This document shows, piece by piece, positions 3,677 to 14,983 of a stretch of DNA of 29,974 nt. Every line of letters begins with the position of its first letter. The stretch's first letter is position 1. The DNA comes from a virus. Below the pieces are notes generated by a model, which saw only the letters and a program-made list of their open reading frames with translations, made no database searches and was not told the origin of the DNA. The position numbers and the translations under genes were made by a program. The stretch covers positions 1-29,974 of IMG/VR virus record IMGVR_UViG_3300025065_000030. The stretch is one strand, 5' to 3'.

Positions 3677-4350
3677 TAAAGCAAAATAAACCAATAGAGA
3701 TGGAGATCGATAAAATCAAGCTAAACCCGGACAATGCCAGGGTTTTAAGAAGAAGGGCGGAACTCGGGCTGGAGAGTTCACTCGAAGAGTTAGGAAACCT
3801 TGGCGTGATCGTTGTAAACAAAAGGACAGGAAACCTTGTTTCCGGAGAGCAAAGGCTGAAAATTATGAAGAGGGAAGGAGCAAAGACTACCTATGGCTAT
3901 GAGATTGATGTTCCAAAGGAGAAAGAGCTAGCTGTTATGCTCGCCATGAACAACAAGAATATCACAGGAGATGACAAGCCCGGGGATCAAATCAAGAACA
4001 TAGAAAAGATCGCAAAGGCTCTCCCAGACATTTATGATAAATTGCAGTTGGTGGACCTAAAGCGCCAGCTTCAAGCAATGAAACCGGCACCTTTGTCGTT
4101 CGAAGCAGAAGAGCGGATCCCCGACATGGAGATTCAGCCGTATGAGCATTACGATTACATAGTAATTATGTGCAAAGATGTGAGGGACTGGCTGTCGTTG
4201 CTCGATATTTTCGGGATAAAAAAGACGAAGGTTAAGCTCGAGCGGAGGAAGGCAAAAGTCGGGCTTGGCCGGGTTATAGATGGGGGGCTTGTCTTGAAGA
4301 AAATCTTCCACAAAGAGAGCGCAGTGAGCAAGGAAGAGAAAGACGGATGA
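3673..4350 (+). CDS. ParB/sulfiredoxin-fold domain protein
   Basis: 225 residues starting with GTG 3673 after AGGAGGAGG. The N-terminal 90 residues carry the ParB-like signature: LNPDNARVL (17-25), a short helix, VIVVNKRTGNLVSGEQRLKI (45-64), where SGEQR (57-61) matches the usual G-x-x-R/H phosphate-binding box, then GYEIDVPKEKELAVMLAMNN. The C-terminal half (about 130-225) is a separate domain with HYDYIVIMCKDVRDWLSLL and a basic tail. ParB-fold proteins in phages cut, bind or modify nucleotides and DNA, and often sit next to base-modifying enzymes. Here the next gene, a glycosyltransferase, overlaps by 4 bases (ATGA). Host-type partition function is unlikely because no HTH region is seen. 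Confidence 0.7.
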   Translation: MIKQNKPIEMEIDKIKLNPDNARVLRRRAELGLESSLEELGNLGVIVVNKRTGNLVSGEQRLKIMKREGAKTTYGYEIDVPKEKELAVMLAMNNKNITGDDKPGDQIKNIEKIAKALPDIYDKLQLVDLKRQLQAMKPAPLSFEAEERIPDMEIQPYEHYDYIVIMCKDVRDWLSLLDIFGIKKTKVKLERRKAKVGLGRVIDGGLVLKKIFHKESAVSKEEKDG

Positions 4351-5114
4351 AGGTCGTTATTATTTCCAGGAAGCGACCCGCTATCGCCTGCAAGACTAGC
4401 TTGAGGCTCTTTCCTGATGCGCTTGTAAGCATATCAGAGGAAGATGTCGAAGATTATGCAAACGCAGGGGTCAAGGAAAGCCAGATGCTTGTCCATCCAA
4501 ACGAAATGAAAGGCGTAACAAAAAAAAGGAATTGGGTGCTGAGAAATATCGAGGATGAAACCTGTGTAACCGTTGATGACGATCTTAAAGGGCTGATATG
4601 TTTTACAGGAAAGTTCGGGAGGCACATCAAAGACCCGGAAGATATAAACCAAATACTCCTTAATAGCGAAACGATCGCAAAAGGAATAAGGACTCCAATG
4701 TTCAGCTTCTCGAATGTTGGCACTGATATACGGAAATACATTCCTCATAAGCCGTTTCATGTTGTCGGGTATCCAACAGGAGTCCACGGGATGATTGGAA
4801 GAAATCTGTGGTATGACGAAAAGCTGACGAGCCATGAAGACGTAGACATGGGTCTTCAAGTAGTGAGAAAATATAGAATAATCTGGATAGACCTGAGGTT
4901 CAGCTTTTTTCAGCAAGTTTCGACAGGAATGATGGCCGGAGGAAGGGCGGGTACTTATGCGAAAAAAGATGAGGTTGAGGGAGAGCGATACCTAAAACGG
5001 AAATGGGGCGCACATTATAAGTTCTCAAAATGGCAAAAAGGAACAACAAAATCGGTGATAGTTGTGCAGAGGGAGCAAACAGGGCTTATCCTTCCACACC
5101 AAACAAAGGCTTGA
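4347..5114 (+). CDS. GT-A glycosyltransferase, TET-associated (TAGT)-like; possible DNA base glycosylation
   Basis: 255 residues. It opens with the GT-A nucleotide-binding strand KVVIISRKRP (2-11), then KKRNWVLRN (59-67) and CVTVDDDLKGL (73-83), whose DDD supplies the metal/UDP-sugar-binding DxD. A later SHEDVDMGL (162-170) gives the acidic catalytic region. The order S-R-x-R, K-R-N, V-D-D-D, E-D-x-D is like the glycosyltransferases in phage TET/JBP and ParB-associated DNA hypermodification clusters, which add sugars to hydroxymethylated bases. The ParB-fold gene directly upstream (ATGA overlap) fits. No oxygenase or hydroxymethyltransferase is visible in this window, so the acceptor (DNA or surface glycan) is inference. 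The -35 box of a promoter overlaps its stop codon. Confidence 0.6.
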   Translation: MKVVIISRKRPAIACKTSLRLFPDALVSISEEDVEDYANAGVKESQMLVHPNEMKGVTKKRNWVLRNIEDETCVTVDDDLKGLICFTGKFGRHIKDPEDINQILLNSETIAKGIRTPMFSFSNVGTDIRKYIPHKPFHVVGYPTGVHGMIGRNLWYDEKLTSHEDVDMGLQVVRKYRIIWIDLRFSFFQQVSTGMMAGGRAGTYAKKDEVEGERYLKRKWGAHYKFSKWQKGTTKSVIVVQREQTGLILPHQTKA

Positions 5115-8399: not shown

Positions 8400-9816
8400 A
8401 TCAATCCAAAAGACCCATATCGAAGGTCTGAGGGTTGGAGGGCTAAAGACTGAAGCAGACATCGCCGCTCTTCTTTCATGGCTTAAGGATCCGATTGTAG
8501 CGACCAAAAAGAATTGTAGGCATAAGTCAGGCGAAGATCATGTCCCGCCTTTCAAATTCGTTGCTGATATACTGTTGATGCGGGTGTTCAATTACATTGT
8601 CTGGGCGAACAGGTCCGGCTCGAAGTCTTATTTGGCAGGGATGATAACCTGGGTGCTCAGCTCGTTCCTTGAGCGGCTAGAAACGATGATCCTGGGAGGG
8701 TCGTTTGAACAATCAGAGAAGTCGTACAAGGCTATGAATGATTTTTGGCTCTCTACTGGATTGGCAAATAAGTATCTCGCTCAAGACATGACGATGAAGA
8801 AAAGCCTATGGGTCAACGGAAGTATGGCCGGGGTGCTTACCGCATCACAAAAGTCGGTTCGAGGGCCTCATCCCCAAAGGCTTATACTTGATGAGATAGA
8901 CGAGATGGACGAAGAAGTTTACAAAGCCGCCCTTTCGCAACCACAGAGTAAGCATGGCCAGAAAGCATCTATGGGCAGGCTCTCTACTAATCACAATATT
9001 GGCGGTGTGATGGACATGGCCCTCGAAAAAGCGTTCGAGTCCGGGACGAAGATTTACAAGTGGTGTGTCTGGGAGTGCCTTCAGTCGTGCAAAGATTATA
9101 ACTGTTCTACCTGCAAACTCTCTTCCTATTGCCCAGGGAAGCACATGAAAAATGCTGATGGGTATTATCTGATAGACGACTTCGTTCAAAAACTCTATGA
9201 GCTATCAGACATGACGCTCCAAGTGGAATGGCTTTGTGAGAAAGTAGGCCGTGATGATCTTGTCTATGGCGCTCAATATGATGATGAGATAAACAGCCCG
9301 AATGATCTTCCTGTCTTTGACCCCACAAAACCGGTAAAGCTCTCGATAGATTGGGGAGGTACAAACCCGTTCTCGTGCGGAGTGTGGCAGGAGTTTAAGG
9401 GGCTTGGATGGGTGAGGGTCGATGAGGTCTATATGGGGAATACGACCAATTCAAGGTTCATAAAAGAGTGTAAAAGCCGACCGTGGTGGAAGAAAGTAAA
9501 AGAAGGCGTGGCGGACCCAAATCGTTCAGACCTAATTAGGGAATGGCGGGATGATGGGGTGGATCTGTATAGGGCTAAAGGTGATGTAGAGGAAGGAATC
9601 GAAGCCATGAGAGATTGCTTAAGCCCCGTGCTTGGAAAGCCAAAAATATATATCAATAGACGCTGCAGAGCGTGGAGAACTGAAGTTGGTCAGTATTCGG
9701 AAAAGAACGGAAAGCCGATCGATGAAAATAATCACGCTATGGACGAAACCAGATATTTTGTAGCGCGGTGGGTAAAACCATTAAAGCAGATAAGAGTGAG
9801 GGGGATCACGCAATGA
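8341..9816 (+). CDS. terL: Terminase large subunit (packaging ATPase-nuclease)
   Basis: 491 residues from ATG 8341, six bases after GGAG (8331-8334). ATG 8335 overlaps that site, so it is less likely. ATPase domain: Walker A-like ANRSGSKSYLAG (89-100, R-S-G-x-K-S) and Walker B RLILDEIDE (180-188). A cysteine cluster (CLQSCKDYNCSTCKLSSYC, about 246-264) forms a probable zinc site between the domains. Nuclease domain: LSIDWGGTNPFSCGVW (about 334-349) with the first catalytic Asp, then ADPNRSDLIREW and NHAMDETRYF with later acidic residues, an RNase H-like fold. It pumps DNA into the prohead through the portal encoded next. It overlaps the small subunit by 59 bases. Confidence 0.93.
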   Translation: METAVSQEKIRSFWQNQSIRSIQKTHIEGLRVGGLKTEADIAALLSWLKDPIVATKKNCRHKSGEDHVPPFKFVADILLMRVFNYIVWANRSGSKSYLAGMITWVLSSFLERLETMILGGSFEQSEKSYKAMNDFWLSTGLANKYLAQDMTMKKSLWVNGSMAGVLTASQKSVRGPHPQRLILDEIDEMDEEVYKAALSQPQSKHGQKASMGRLSTNHNIGGVMDMALEKAFESGTKIYKWCVWECLQSCKDYNCSTCKLSSYCPGKHMKNADGYYLIDDFVQKLYELSDMTLQVEWLCEKVGRDDLVYGAQYDDEINSPNDLPVFDPTKPVKLSIDWGGTNPFSCGVWQEFKGLGWVRVDEVYMGNTTNSRFIKECKSRPWWKKVKEGVADPNRSDLIREWRDDGVDLYRAKGDVEEGIEAMRDCLSPVLGKPKIYINRRCRAWRTEVGQYSEKNGKPIDENNHAMDETRYFVARWVKPLKQIRVRGITQ

Positions 9817-11291
9817 AAATACCATACCCAAAGGTCAACATAGAGAACGGCCATGTCAAGGCCGGAATTGCCAATATAGATGTAAGATTCAAGGGCAGAG
9901 CCTGGGTGAGCCCTTCGATAGATGACGAGTCGGCCTGGGGAGGTGGCGATACATGGGGAGAGAGCCGGTTCCAAGCGCTCAATGAGCCGTCGATACAGCT
10001 TAAATATTACAACTCATGGGGCTATATCTGCATCAATTACAACGCAAAACAAATTTCGAGACAGAAACTAAAGCTCTATGTGACGAAGAAAGTTGGCTCT
10101 GCCTCGTTTAAAAACACGCTCACAAGGAAGCTGAGTACAAAAGAAGTAGCTTGGGTCAAGGAGAACCGTGGACTCCAGAGATGGGTAGCAAAGGACGTTG
10201 AGATCGAAGAGGTGTTGGAGCACCCGTTCTTAGAGATGATGAAGGCTATAAATCCACTCCAGAACCAAGCAGATATGTGGATGCTGACTGAGACTTTTAT
10301 GGGGATTACGGGCAACTGTTATTGGTGGATGCGCCCCAATAATCTAGGAATCCCTTATCAGCTCTGGATTTTAGAGACACAGCGAACGGTCCCAGTGCCG
10401 GGAACAAGCATTGATAATTATGTCGCTGGCTATGTCCACCGGATAGGAATGAAAGATATCCCTTTTGATGCAGATGAAGTAGTCCATCATAAATATCCAA
10501 ACCCTCATACAAAGCTAATAGGCTTGAGTCCTATGCAGGCGCTTCAAGACCCGTTGGTCATAAACGATGAAATGTATAGGTATGAGAGAGGGGTATTTGC
10601 GAACATGGCACGACCGGACGGAGTACTTGAAACTCAAGATGACGAGGTGCTGGCAAAGACAACTTTTAATAAAATAAAGAAAGAGTGGAATCAGACCTAT
10701 GGCGGGGCGGCTCAAGCGGGCAAGGTGGCGTTGCTTGAGGGCGGAGTTAAATACAAGCAAATCTCAATGAAGCCAAAGGACTTGGGACACCTCGAGGGGA
10801 GAAAGCTCACGAGAGAAGAGATAGCGGGCGGGTACGGTGTACCGATGGCTTTGCTTACGCCAGATAAAGTGAACCTGGCCAACGCAAGAATAGCCTACGT
10901 CCAGTATATGAGGGACACGATTGACCCAAAGCTCAAAGTCTATGAGCAGAAGATAAACGAACAGCTTCTGATAAGATACGAGGATGAAAATATCTTCTGT
11001 GCTTTTGATGATTGCATCCCGGGAGACAGGGAGTTTGCGCTCAAAGAGAGGGAAGCTAATCTTAAGTCCGGATATTCTGTCATAAACGAGCTGAGGAAAG
11101 AGGACGGCAAAGAGCCACATGAGGAGTATGGGGACATGCCGATTATGGGTTCGAACATGGTTGAGTTCGACCCGAACGCTGAGCCCGAACCCAAGGTGCC
11201 GTTGCTTCCTCCTAAACCCGAAGAGGAAGAGGAGGAGGAAGAGGGTAAACTTGCCAAAAGGATAGCGAAGGAGATTTTTGAAAGGCTATGA
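9813..11291 (+). CDS. Portal protein (HK97-type)
   Basis: 492 residues from ATG 9813 (ATGA overlap with terminase). The frame opens earlier, at 9768. It forms the dodecameric ring at the special capsid vertex. Family features in order: SWGYICINYNAKQISRQKLK (wing), FMGITGNCYWWM, PFDADEVVHHKYPNP (the conserved D-E-V-x-H motif), GLSPMQAL, YERGVFANMARPDGVLE and EIAGGYGVPMALLTPDKVNLANA, then ANLKSGYSVINELRKEDG near the C-terminus. Length is usual for the family. The last 25 residues are a Glu run (EEEEEEEEGKLAKR). The stop overlaps the MuF-like start (ATGA). Confidence 0.92.
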   Translation: MKIPYPKVNIENGHVKAGIANIDVRFKGRAWVSPSIDDESAWGGGDTWGESRFQALNEPSIQLKYYNSWGYICINYNAKQISRQKLKLYVTKKVGSASFKNTLTRKLSTKEVAWVKENRGLQRWVAKDVEIEEVLEHPFLEMMKAINPLQNQADMWMLTETFMGITGNCYWWMRPNNLGIPYQLWILETQRTVPVPGTSIDNYVAGYVHRIGMKDIPFDADEVVHHKYPNPHTKLIGLSPMQALQDPLVINDEMYRYERGVFANMARPDGVLETQDDEVLAKTTFNKIKKEWNQTYGGAAQAGKVALLEGGVKYKQISMKPKDLGHLEGRKLTREEIAGGYGVPMALLTPDKVNLANARIAYVQYMRDTIDPKLKVYEQKINEQLLIRYEDENIFCAFDDCIPGDREFALKEREANLKSGYSVINELRKEDGKEPHEEYGDMPIMGSNMVEFDPNAEPEPKVPLLPPKPEEEEEEEEGKLAKRIAKEIFERL

Positions 11292-13444
11292 ATTTCGCAA
11301 AGATTGATACTGTAAAGCTCGTAAAGCTCGTAAAGAGTGAGCTGTTTATCCTCATCCTGAAGGAACATTTGCCCAAGCACCTGAAAAAGAAGTTCGATGA
11401 AGCTTTAGTCAAGAAGATCACTCATGCTCAATTTCTAAGGATAAATAAAGATCATATCAAAAAATACACAGCCCAGCTCGAGAAACGGTTCAATGAGATA
11501 GGGCGTGAGGTATTAGGTAACATCAAAAAGACTCCTAAGTCGTTTGACCGTTGGAATGAGGCCAGACGGCAGGCAGAAGCCATGAAGACGTTGATTAAAA
11601 CATGGAAAGCATGGGTTGAAGCTGACGAGACAGAGAGAAGCGCCGTTATGCCAGAAGCTCTCTTGTATGCCAAATTCGATGTTGATCAATGGCTATTTAG
11701 CCGTCAAAAATGGAGGGGGATTTTTACTACGGACGGCAAGCTCTATACGGCAGCGCCGCTAAAAGACGGTGGTGTGATGGTGCTGGACGATCTTCCTGTG
11801 GAGATGTCGTTTGATCATACAGACCCAAGGGCAATAAAATGGGTGGCAGAGAACGCAAAGAACGCCGGCTGGTCGATAACTCAGACCCAGTACGACAGGC
11901 TAAAAGTCGTTCTCATGGACTCTCTGGCCGATGGTCTTTCTATCCCCAAAATAAGGGATAAGATTGAAGAGGCGATGGAGGTAGCGGCTAAAAGGGCAGA
12001 GCAGATAGCCAGGACTGAGGTGCTCAAGGCTTCGAACCGAGGCGTATTAATAGGGATGAAACAGAGCGGAGTGGTAGAGGGGCGTCAATGGCTGGCAACG
12101 ATGGACAACAGAACATGTTTTCTAGCCAAAACAAAAGTCATGACAGATAAGGGGGAAAGGAATATTGAGGATATAAAAATAGGTGAGATTGTCTTGACTC
12201 ACCTTGGGTGGAACAGAGTAAAAAATACATACAAAAGAGAATACAATAAGCCATTAACTGAAATCAAAATGTCAAACGAGAGGACATTAAGGGCTACTCC
12301 TGACCATCCAGTCTTTGAGATGAATCGTGGATGGGTTGATGCTGGGGATTTACTTGCTGGCTCGAAACTTCAAGCTTGTGAAAACAAAATGGTTTATGTC
12401 AGAGCAATTAACAATATCGGTCTCCTTGAGGCGAATTACCTTATAACCAAGGGCAAGAAGTTTTCTGTCTTTAATGGAATCTTTCTTAATATCAGAGTGC
12501 CAATATTCACTGTCAACTTCAAGACAAAGATTAAGATGTGGAATAAAAAAATCAATACTATAAGTAGAAATTTGATATTCTTGAATGAAATCAACTTTAA
12601 GAAACTCAAGAGATTTGCGTATCGTCTTTTCAAGCGATGTTTCTCCAGAGTGTTTACGATAACAAGAAAAAGAACAAAAACGTCGGATCCCTTTTTCGCT
12701 AGGGCAAATGCGAAACCTTTTTTTGCATTGAAGACATTGAATATAGACAGGAGGACGCCTACATTCTTCAGAACAATATTTAATATCTTCTCTTTTTGCA
12801 GTAAATATTTTTCCGCACCGCTTACATTCTCTATAGAGCGTAAATTTTGTTTTGCATTCTCGACTACAGACGATATATCTATGAGAAATGTTTTTATAAA
12901 CAGAAAACTCCTTATTGCATACAGGGCACATTTTTATAATTTTTTTCCCTTCCTTATGAGCGGTCATGTAGCAAGCACGAGAACAATATTTCCTTGGACG
13001 GCTTCGATAAGAATAAATTACTTTTCCACATTGTTTACAAACGCTTTTTTTCCTAGTGATAGTAGACTTATGATAGCAATCCGCAGAACAATAAATCGAT
13101 TTAAGAGAAGTAGAAGAAAACTTTTTTCCGCAATATTTGCAAGAATGCATCATTACGCTAGATATTGTACATCAAAAGTCAAAAGAAGTAAACCACTATT
13201 TGTTTATAACTTGGAAGTGGATAAAGCAAAAACATATTTTGCAGAAGGCATCTTAGTGCACAACTGTACAGGTTGCGCTGAAATGGACGGCACTACAATG
13301 GCGTTAGATAAACCGTTCTTTAAAAAAGGGAGCTCAACCATGTTGGGTGGCATCCATTTTGCTTTCGACTATGAGGAGATACAGCATCCTCCGCTTCACG
13401 TTTCGTGTCGCTGTACGCTGTTGGCAATCCTAAAACAGGTTTAG
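11288..13444 (+). CDS. MuF/SPP1 gp7-like head morphogenesis protein interrupted by an intein
   Basis: The 718-codon frame encodes an extein split at residues 1-276 and 660-718 around a 383-residue intein. The spliced product would be 335 residues, normal for SPP1 gp7/Mu gpF-type proteins that bind the portal and enter the head with DNA. The extein carries the family's conserved end: AEQIARTEVLKASNRGVLIG, QWLATMDNRT, then after splicing CTGCAEMDG and PPLHVSCRCTLLAI, the usual C-x-x-C...H...C-R-C cluster. The intein splits the first cysteine of that cluster, so splicing is needed for function. ATG 11288 overlaps the portal stop. Codons 355-622 are also read on the other strand as an endonuclease gene. 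They translate here as a low-complexity Arg/Lys/Phe-rich linker that looks like no protein domain. Confidence 0.92.
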   Translation: MNFAKIDTVKLVKLVKSELFILILKEHLPKHLKKKFDEALVKKITHAQFLRINKDHIKKYTAQLEKRFNEIGREVLGNIKKTPKSFDRWNEARRQAEAMKTLIKTWKAWVEADETERSAVMPEALLYAKFDVDQWLFSRQKWRGIFTTDGKLYTAAPLKDGGVMVLDDLPVEMSFDHTDPRAIKWVAENAKNAGWSITQTQYDRLKVVLMDSLADGLSIPKIRDKIEEAMEVAAKRAEQIARTEVLKASNRGVLIGMKQSGVVEGRQWLATMDNRTCFLAKTKVMTDKGERNIEDIKIGEIVLTHLGWNRVKNTYKREYNKPLTEIKMSNERTLRATPDHPVFEMNRGWVDAGDLLAGSKLQACENKMVYVRAINNIGLLEANYLITKGKKFSVFNGIFLNIRVPIFTVNFKTKIKMWNKKINTISRNLIFLNEINFKKLKRFAYRLFKRCFSRVFTITRKRTKTSDPFFARANAKPFFALKTLNIDRRTPTFFRTIFNIFSFCSKYFSAPLTFSIERKFCFAFSTTDDISMRNVFINRKLLIAYRAHFYNFFPFLMSGHVASTRTIFPWTASIRINYFSTLFTNAFFPSDSRLMIAIRRTINRFKRSRRKLFSAIFARMHHYARYCTSKVKRSKPLFVYNLEVDKAKTYFAEGILVHNCTGCAEMDGTTMALDKPFFKKGSSTMLGGIHFAFDYEEIQHPPLHVSCRCTLLAILKQV
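11312..11335 (+). repeat. Short in-frame tandem repeat (9-base unit)
   Basis: GTAAAGCTC occurs twice in tandem (11312-11320, 11321-11329), followed by GTAAAG, encoding VKLVKLVKS near the N-terminus of the MuF-like protein. Probably a slipped-strand duplication that lengthens a basic amphipathic segment. Confidence 0.7.
12350..13153 (-). CDS. Antisense Vsr-like homing endonuclease with five zinc modules, nested in the intein
   Basis: 267 residues on the minus strand inside the intein. Residues 1-168 hold five repeats of C-x2-C...C-x3-C: Cys 5/8/22/26, 39/42/57/61, 76/79/96/100, 110/113/127/131 and 140/143/160/164, each typically followed by G-K-x-F or a similar strand. These read as zinc-ribbon DNA-binding fingers. 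Residues 173-246 form a Vsr/DUF559-like nuclease: helix SLEKTIRKSLEFL (E175), YSIDFFIP (D201), CLEVDSEYWHSD (E212, D214, H219) and KDRKLLALGYKVIRLKETD (D229). The E-D-x-H-D order is that of I-Bth0305I-type homing endonucleases. No clear Shine-Dalgarno precedes the start. The stop codon lies opposite Leu355 of intein block B. It is the only minus-strand gene in the window. Confidence 0.88.
   Translation of the reverse strand: MMHSCKYCGKKFSSTSLKSIYCSADCYHKSTITRKKSVCKQCGKVIYSYRSRPRKYCSRACYMTAHKEGKKIIKMCPVCNKEFSVYKNISHRYIVCSRECKTKFTLYRECKRCGKIFTAKREDIKYCSEECRRPPVYIQCLQCKKRFRICPSEKGIRRFCSFSCYRKHSGETSLEKTIRKSLEFLKVDFIQEYQISTYSIDFFIPHLNLCLEVDSEYWHSDIKKDSIKDRKLLALGYKVIRLKETDIVNCSDINHFVFTSLKFRASK
13164..13192 (-). 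promoter_or_regulatory. Possible minus-strand promoter for the endonuclease
   Basis: On the minus strand a TTTACT (13187-13192, 4 of 6 matches to TTGACA) and a TACAAT (13164-13169, 5 of 6 to TATAAT) are separated by 17 bases. The -10 box ends only about 10 bases before the endonuclease ATG (13151-13153), so the mRNA would be nearly leaderless, which fits the missing ribosome binding site. In an AT-rich region such matches are common, so confidence is low. Confidence 0.3.
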
Positions 13445-13480: not shown

Positions 13481-14983
13481 ATGAGGGAGCTAATAACGCA
13501 AAGAAAAAACCTGAGCGAGGTCAATTTCGCCGCCCAGGATATTGTCGATGGGTTCATCGATGAAACACTAAAGGGGGACTGGCCGTTTACGACCGATACG
13601 GAGATCCCGTTTGTTAGGAAATTCTACATCCAGGATGAGATCCAAACAAAGGCTACACCAAGGCAAAAGCTGGACGCTGGTCAAGTTGTCCACTATATCT
13701 CGACTGCGGCACTAGATAGGGATCATGAAATAATGAAACCAAGTGGCGTGGAGCTTAAACACTACAGGAAAAATCCATTGGTGCTGTGGTCGCATGATCC
13801 CACAGATCCAGATAACATCGTTGGTAAAAACGTATGGGTAAACCAAGACCAAAAAGGGCTTGTTTCGTTAACCCAGTTTGCGTTGTCAAACGAGAAAGCA
13901 GCTAAAGTATACAACCTATACCGGGATGGTTTTCTCAGGGCATGGTCAGTCGGGTTTACTCCGCTAAAGGGGAAGAAGCCAAAGCCTGATGAGAAGCTCA
14001 CGTTTATAATGGGCGACACTCCAAAACCAGGTGAGGTTATGTACGTCCATGAGAAATGGGCGTTGCTTGAATACTCTGCCGTTGGCGTACCGTCCAATCC
14101 AGAAGCGCTCACAGAGCAGGTAGCGAAAGGCTATGAGCTCACAGACGAGCTTGTCAAAGAGCTTGAAATAAATTTGGAGGGATACGAAATTGGGAAAAAA
14201 GACAAAACGATCATTGACCTTGGAGGGATATTAGGCGATGGGGAGTCGAAAGAAAAAGGCAAAGAAAGCAAGGAGGAAGAAGGTGGCGAAGAAGGCAAAG
14301 AGAAGGGCGGTGATGGGCTAAAAGGCATGGACTTAGAAGGCAATCCTTCAGCTTGGGATATTGCCTCAGCTTTAAGGGCTGTATTTCGGAAGAAGGAAAC
14401 GAAAGATAAGTACATTTATGTCGCAGATCTATATCCTGTGAACTATCCTGATGGGCACTGTGTTGCTGAAATAAACACCGCCGGCAAGCCGAATAAATAT
14501 TTCCTTTATGATTACACATACAACGAAGGCGAAATTGAAATCGAAAACCCACGGGAACTTGATCTTGGATACACAGCGAGATCGTGGACTGAGATACTCC
14601 AGAGAGCCGATACGACCATCATGACAACCGAACTCTATGAAGGCATAGCTGAGAATATCGAAGGCATGAAATCGGAGCTTATGGAGCTAAAGGCTGGCCG
14701 TGAAATCTCGGCAAAGAACATGAAAATGTTAAGCGAAGTGGCGGAGAAAATGGAAGAAGCGACCACGGCGGTTCGTGCACTGCTCGATGCCAACAAACCC
14801 GAAGAAGGAAAACACGATGACTCCAAAACGATAAATGTTGAGGCTCTGATGAAAGACGTTAAAGTTGACAAGGAGGATGAAGCTGTGCTAACAAAAGAAG
14901 ACCAGCTAAAAGTGCTCGAGGATATAAGCATGGACGACCTGGCAAAGGAAGTCATGGAAAAGCGAAAAGGGAAAGTGAGTTAA
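13481..14983 (+). CDS. Prohead protease (HK97 family) with extra domain and scaffold-like C-terminus
   Basis: 500 residues after AAGGAGG (about 13467-13473). The N-terminal part is a U35-type capsid maturation protease: TAALDRDHEIMKPSGV, catalytic His105 in VLWSHDP, GLVSLTQFALSNEKA and Ser156 in RAWSVGF, then YSAVGVPSNPEAL. A Gly/Glu/Lys linker (about 254-280) leads to a second domain (about 288-370: AWDIASALRAVF, YIYVADLYPVNYPDGHCV, KYFLYDYTYNEGEIEI) that recurs in phage head proteins. The end (about 380-500) is a heptad-rich, charged helix like a scaffold (delta) domain. It is therefore a protease-scaffold fusion, about twice the length of the HK97 enzyme. It cleaves the scaffold and capsid N-terminus during head maturation. 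Confidence 0.87.
   Translation: MRELITQRKNLSEVNFAAQDIVDGFIDETLKGDWPFTTDTEIPFVRKFYIQDEIQTKATPRQKLDAGQVVHYISTAALDRDHEIMKPSGVELKHYRKNPLVLWSHDPTDPDNIVGKNVWVNQDQKGLVSLTQFALSNEKAAKVYNLYRDGFLRAWSVGFTPLKGKKPKPDEKLTFIMGDTPKPGEVMYVHEKWALLEYSAVGVPSNPEALTEQVAKGYELTDELVKELEINLEGYEIGKKDKTIIDLGGILGDGESKEKGKESKEEEGGEEGKEKGGDGLKGMDLEGNPSAWDIASALRAVFRKKETKDKYIYVADLYPVNYPDGHCVAEINTAGKPNKYFLYDYTYNEGEIEIENPRELDLGYTARSWTEILQRADTTIMTTELYEGIAENIEGMKSELMELKAGREISAKNMKMLSEVAEKMEEATTAVRALLDANKPEEGKHDDSKTINVEALMKDVKVDKEDEAVLTKEDQLKVLEDISMDDLAKEVMEKRKGKVS

Follow-up and report, generated by a model that had tools for sequence, protein, structure and literature searches.

A phage MuF intein whose splicing and homing functions are likely encoded on opposite strands

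Canonical large inteins combine a Hint splicing domain with a nuclease that lies between blocks B and F, serves homing, and is part of the translated precursor. How is homing provided for in an intein that has the same Hint blocks, but whose nuclease is a separate antisense gene? The case considered here comes from a viral contig (IMG/VR record IMGVR_UViG_3300025065_000030), the whole analysed stretch of which, 29,974 nucleotides, is called the window. The features at issue are listed below; a slash within a motif marks a splice junction.

9768-11291: portal gene, neighbour of MuF
11288-13444, plus strand: MuF-type head morphogenesis gene, ORF of 718 aa (Pfam Phage_Mu_F 7.6e-11, above cut-off)
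11288..12115, plus strand: MuF N-extein, residues 1-276, which carries the Phage_Mu_F match
12116..13264, plus strand: intein, precursor residues 277-659, 383 aa (Pfam Intein_splicing 5.5e-11, above cut-off; Cys1, TPDH, VYNLEV, VHN/C)
12116..12382, plus strand: N-terminal half of Hint, blocks A-B (AF2 pLDDT about 88 over intein residues 1-89)
13155..13264, plus strand: C-terminal part of Hint, blocks F-G (AF2 confident from about intein residue 347 to the end)
13265..13444, plus strand: MuF C-extein including the stop, beginning with the +1 Cys (CTGCAEMDGT...HVSCRC) and alignable to the C-extein of relative L021
12350-13153, minus strand: nested endonuclease gene, 267 aa, ATG start, TAA stop
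13076..13141, minus strand: zinc module 1, C5xxC8...C22xxxC26
12971..13039, minus strand: zinc module 2, C39xxC42...C57xxxC61
12854..12928, minus strand: zinc module 3, C76xxC79...C96xxxC100
12761..12826, minus strand: zinc module 4, C110xxC113...C127xxxC131
12662..12736, minus strand: zinc module 5, C140xxC143...C160xxxC164
12407..12643, minus strand: EDxHD/DUF559 nuclease domain, residues 171-249 (DUF559 1.2e-7, above cut-off)
13164..13192, minus strand: promoter-like TTTACT-N17-TACAAT
13481-14983: prohead protease gene, neighbour of MuF

All residues of a class-1 intein are present: C277 (in CFLAKTKV), TPDH in block B, VYNLEV in block F, VHN in block G, and C660 at the +1 position; judged by these motifs the intein is class-1-like. 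The host motif DNRT/CTGCAEMDGT spans the 3' junction, and the predicted spliced MuF has 335 aa (718-383). The first-pass annotation had described an intact intein at 12116-13264 without an in-frame endonuclease domain; its boundaries proved exact, and the sense frame holds no nuclease, which sets this intein apart from the canonical homing intein. A split intein or fractured gene is ruled out by the one unbroken 718-codon ORF, and a MuF polymorphic toxin with a PT-HINT arrangement (Hint followed by a C-terminal toxin, with no C-extein) by the remainder of MuF that follows the Hint domain. Elsewhere in the window, 4347-5114 has a weak match to phrog_842 (beta-glucosyl-HMC-alpha-glucosyltransferase, 1.6e-6) and possibly encodes a glycosyltransferase.

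The nested gene is codon-aligned with the intein, each sense codon being the reverse complement of one nuclease codon. It had been annotated as a complete 267-codon minus-strand gene with five zinc modules between blocks B and F, and both its limits and its modules are confirmed. Candidate active-site residues are E175, D201, E212, D214, H219, and D225, among which D201, E212, D214, and D225 are invariant in alignment A3. The AF2 model of the nuclease (pLDDT 78) has as its best PDB match by Foldseek the catalytic domain of I-Bth0305I (3r3p; E=4.3e-5, TM-score 0.80 on target), with Vsr ranking lower; the earlier label "Vsr-like" is corrected in that this Vsr-type EDxHD nuclease is nearest to I-Bth0305I, not to Vsr itself. 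By its Vsr-like PD-(D/E)xK fold and family residues (DUF559, 3r3p E=4e-5) the protein belongs with the EDxHD homing endonucleases, sharing with I-Bth0305I the nuclease fold, a phage context, and the association with an intein. Essentially identical copies of intein and nuclease are found in four other IMG/VR contigs, and these near-identical copies represent one species; the window-type nuclease has no match in GTDB genomes.

The reading that we consider likely is a mobile MuF intein that divides its two jobs, splicing and homing, between the two DNA strands. On the sense strand would be a mini-intein, a Hint fold of about 125 aa broken by a long disordered linker; opposite that linker, the complementary strand would carry a zinc-array EDxHD endonuclease as a gene in its own right. 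After synthesis of the MuF precursor, the intein would splice itself out to leave the 335-aa MuF; the nuclease, transcribed separately from the other strand, would cut the MuF gene of coinfecting phages that lack the intein, close to where the intein inserts, and repair would copy intein and nuclease together into the cut allele, giving homing by co-conversion. As the frames are codon-aligned, the host gene stays open because the nuclease avoids TTA, CTA, and TCA.

The arrangement is not a one-off, as the window alone might have implied: numerous unrelated phages have it, their MuF inteins occupying two different insertion sites and drawing on several families of nuclease. A tblastn search of cultured phages with the MuF intein of the window recovered MuF inteins at a second site, HPN/CR, and the search proposed at the outset, for phage MuF intein genes with minus-strand nuclease ORFs, yielded many cases. 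All of the first MuF inteins inspected contain a codon-aligned antisense ORF (Pantoea AH01, Salmonella, Idiomarinaceae 1N2-2, Vibrio 1.082.O and 1.265.O, and Gordonia SchottB), and further nested cases are Gordonia Angelicage, Nordenberg, and Sampson, Vibrio 1.113.A and PvVp04, Aaphi23, Klebsiella KpTDp1, Pseudomonas CF74b, Edwardsiella MSW-3, and a Helicobacter prophage. The phage groups concerned are those of Salmonella, Pantoea, Vibrio, Klebsiella, Edwardsiella, Pseudomonas, Haemophilus, Idiomarinaceae, Helicobacter, and Gordonia. Besides the zinc-array EDxHD type of the window there are at least three kinds of nested nuclease: a helix-turn-helix (HTH) domain with a PD-(D/E)xK-like nuclease in most cases, HTH with DUF559 in Vibrio (Pfam 2e-10 and 8e-13), and a phrog_5046 endonuclease of the Gordonia SchottB type (2.5e-15). 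Most records annotate only the sense head protein at these loci, and a few also carry hypothetical proteins. When IMG/VR was searched with the Klebsiella/Edwardsiella nuclease as an unbiased check, 15 of 16 loci lay inside a codon-aligned sense ORF of 574-686 aa; the nine distant zinc/EDxHD nucleases that served as the control set (L071-L075, L087, L100, L103, and L106) are nested in none of nine cases. A GTDB scan with the same Klebsiella/Edwardsiella nuclease gave no match.

Other Hint/intein matches (L017-L063) are mostly without an antisense ORF of at least 120 aa inside the intein, and antisense nesting is therefore not general among inteins. Some of these matches proved instead to hide a nuclease in another frame of the same strand. 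Outside MuF genes, such same-strand nucleases occur at L019:5284-5889, L032:5242-5811, and L035:5290-6060 (DUF559 1e-11 to 6e-14) and at L120:3054-3968 and L124:3069-3866, the five loci including the Tetrasphaera TJE1 terminase (HNH_3 3e-14) and the Xanthomonas FoX3 helicase (LAGLIDADG_2 4e-22). In view of these same-strand cases, overlapping-frame inteins are a wider theme, of which the antisense MuF inteins are one branch.

Closer to the window, three layouts surround the same host gene. Relative L021 shows the canonical design: its MuF intein occupies the insertion site seen in the window, and a zinc module and an EDxHD-type nuclease form part of its reading frame; in L006-L008 MuF lacks an intein, and a homologous nuclease, free-standing and antisense, overlaps the 3' end of the gene (56% identity to the window nuclease for L008:5004-5813); and in the window the nuclease is nested. 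Together these layouts suggest that MuF is a shared target of fused, free-standing, and nested nucleases, and that mini-inteins captured free-standing antisense neighbours. The first 227 codons of the L008 nuclease are free of sense-stop codons but the last 42 include five, which may mean that it recently left a nested position or may reflect codon bias. A free-standing member of a nested-nuclease family is also found in Acinetobacter IME285 (L131:455-1345), where it converges on the 3' end of a MuF-like gene that lacks an intein. That the family lives outside inteins in L008 and L131 would also fit a selfish nuclease that merely shelters in the intein as a safe harbour, with its target elsewhere and its movements independent of the intein. 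We think this unlikely: the free-standing members sit right at the 3' ends of intein-less MuF genes, and the same-site MuF intein carries an in-frame nuclease of the same fold, both of which point to MuF as the target.

For the reading of a mobile two-strand intein, the sense product has to tolerate its insert. For the 384-residue sense intein, AF2 predicts Hint with confidence at residues 1-89 and 347-384, and pLDDT is below 50 at residues 90-346, almost exactly the span of the antisense gene; the best Foldseek match is the phage gp41-1 intein (E=4.7e-7), and other inteins are matched as well. Two confident Hint halves around a low-pLDDT middle point to a functional mini-intein of probably about 125 residues with a disordered insert. 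The sense linker had been called meaningless, and in the window it does look disordered, but the inteins with HTH-class nucleases (L125-L133, L064-L065) keep a sense motif, FHGD...E[IV], within the nuclease overlap near the C-terminal end of the nuclease.

A large disordered linker could hinder splicing, and free-standing relatives of the nuclease adjoin MuF, so that a nuclease might have landed in a mini-intein by accident and killed it, leaving the MuF gene or the intein defunct. The codons argue otherwise. Because the frames are aligned, a sense stop can arise only from nuclease TTA and CTA (Leu) or TCA (Ser), and the window nuclease, with 14 Leu and 29 Ser, has none of them; given its protein sequence and the codon usage of the window phage, the probability of no sense stop is 4e-5. 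Across the 267 codons 7.8 sense stops are expected and none is observed, and among 2,177 stretches of 267 codons in 15 other window genes not one is free of stops when read antisense in the codon-aligned phase. Taking the internal composition of the nuclease gene as the control, 0 of 34 codons in the TCN and CTN boxes end in A, versus 17 of 55 in the remaining fourfold boxes (Fisher p=9e-5). For 16 nested genes taken together the figure is 0/384 versus 243/1484 (CMH z=-8.9); nested genes necessarily have zero sense stops, and this value expresses how unlikely a chance open frame would be. The free-standing IME285 nuclease does not share the avoidance (TTA in 8 of 12 TTR codons, A-ending 4 of 15 Ser/Leu codons), and stop-codon avoidance therefore tracks nesting. 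With the sense frame open, every splicing residue intact, and the same nested layout kept in many phages, an accidentally broken intein is rejected as very improbable.

The distribution of the insert bears on mobility. The MuF gene finds 406 matching records among phages of the Guernseyvirinae type; in 58 the match covers at least 80% of the gene and the insert is present, and in many others both exteins match but the insert is missing. Salmonella MA12 has the second site uninterrupted (HPNCRSTTAP) within extein DNA that is 95% identical, and L008 likewise provides an intein-less MuF allele among the relatives of the window; one narrow DNA pattern found no empty-site allele of the window species itself in IMG/VR. 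A homing element would be expected to show such patchy presence and empty sites. The window and L009 show four differences in 7.6 kb, two of which, at 13268 and 13276, lie 4 and 12 nt beyond the intein (p about 1.5e-5), a faint hint of a possible homing conversion boundary. Alternatively, the intein could be kept mainly as a switch for MuF maturation while the antisense gene does something else, for instance keeping rival phages out; interference among phages by means of nucleases is a known phenomenon, and in the nested layout the nuclease is produced apart from splicing. Patchy distribution and clean empty sites in close relatives are, however, typical of a mobile, non-essential element, and we consider the switch very improbable.

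Selection on the nuclease itself is visible in the pattern of substitutions. Window and L008 nucleases differ at codon positions 1/2/3 in 89/58/138 cases; the excess of position 3 over position 1 (p=7e-4) is a prediction of a coding antisense frame, because position 3 of the nuclease is position 1 of the sense codon. In the antisense reading the two are 58% identical, against 38% when the sense frame is read. The same bias is found in Salmonella pairs, Pantoea/Salmonella, a Vibrio pair, a Gordonia pair, and Klebsiella/Edwardsiella, and is absent in the most divergent pairs compared, where sites are probably saturated. That the minus-strand frame is a mere shadow of codon usage in the sense gene is hardly credible, and both homology and codon-position bias refute it. 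In GC-rich genomes chance often produces long codon-aligned antisense frames, as at the Gordonia and Mycobacterium loci, but the window gene is AT-rich with a DUF559 match above cut-off, has a free-standing homologue and a model that folds like I-Bth0305I, and concentrates substitutions at its own third positions. Both frames of the window are coding and under selection, and homologues retaining both, which the first-pass annotation had made a touchstone, exist in the MuF inteins of many phages with codon-aligned antisense nucleases.

How is the nested gene started? For nucleases of the HTH class, the ATG is formed by the complement of the His codon in block F HVYNLE, and the Shine-Dalgarno sequence (GAGGT/GGAGGT) is mostly the complement of the next Asn-Leu (AAC CTC); the exception is Helicobacter, in which TCC TTA gives AAGGAG. 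The block F Leu is CTC in seven of eight HTH-class cases, CTC making up only 12-33% of Leu codons in the same genes (the product of these fractions, 1.5e-5, is not a p-value, the lineages being of common ancestry), and the other aligned inteins (A5) are without the block F His of this class. The window and L008 nuclease genes have no clear Shine-Dalgarno sequence. Within the coding sequence of the C-terminal part of the window intein, the promoter-like element lies 10 nt before the nuclease ATG, and L008 has TTTACA-N17-TATAAT at the matching place; the common form, TTTAC(T/A)-N17-TA(C/T)AAT at 10-13 nt before the ATG, is consistent with a near-leaderless transcript, although a promoter scan of the window region gave no more matches than expected by chance. 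Independent or early expression of the nuclease is plausible on these signals.

Taken as a class, antisense-nested inteins are somewhat likely to be widespread, with splicing and homing functions on opposite strands and more than one origin involving different nuclease families in MuF. On this reading they would always be codon-aligned because that phase keeps the sense frame open through synonymous choice alone; one branch would build the start codon and ribosome-binding site of the nuclease from block F, and nuclease production would be decoupled from late-gene expression and splicing.

Several described systems resemble parts of this design. In fractured genes, which Dassa et al. reportedly described in 2009, intein and host gene are each split in two and a nuclease ORF separates the halves; in the window, gene and intein are contiguous, with the nuclease gene overlapping both on the opposite strand.

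In the ShiLan insertion element an HNH endonuclease is hidden in an alternate frame of the same strand, with no splicing domain (PMC11855218, 2025). As in the window, the endonuclease occupies another frame of the insert while the host frame is kept open, but the opposite strand, the EDxHD nuclease, and the splicing domain rule out an insert of this type, which is not an intein. Porphyra group I introns carry an endonuclease ORF on the complementary strand (PMC2585584), thus also an antisense endonuclease gene within a self-splicing element; they differ in splicing as RNA and in having no protein-coding sense frame that must stay open. For Salmonella, the part of the text of PMC8425127 consulted refers to an "intein-containing capsid morphogenesis protein" without mention of an antisense gene. 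No antisense-nested intein was described in the literature searched. For overlapping frames, PMC11855218 cites a 2025 preprint on "non-canonical" actinophage inteins; this preprint probably describes overlapping-frame endonucleases in such inteins and may anticipate part of these findings, perhaps the Gordonia cases.

The nested intein breaks the textbook picture in that a homing endonuclease is not always a domain of the translated intein, and it offers an unusually clean natural case of opposite-strand overlapping genes that are both under protein-level selection. Antisense nesting explains inteins that resemble a mini-intein plus a junk linker, and the nuclease gene has been missed in many records of cultured phages. 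Since closely related Salmonella phages exist with and without the insert, the claim of mobility is directly testable in crosses.
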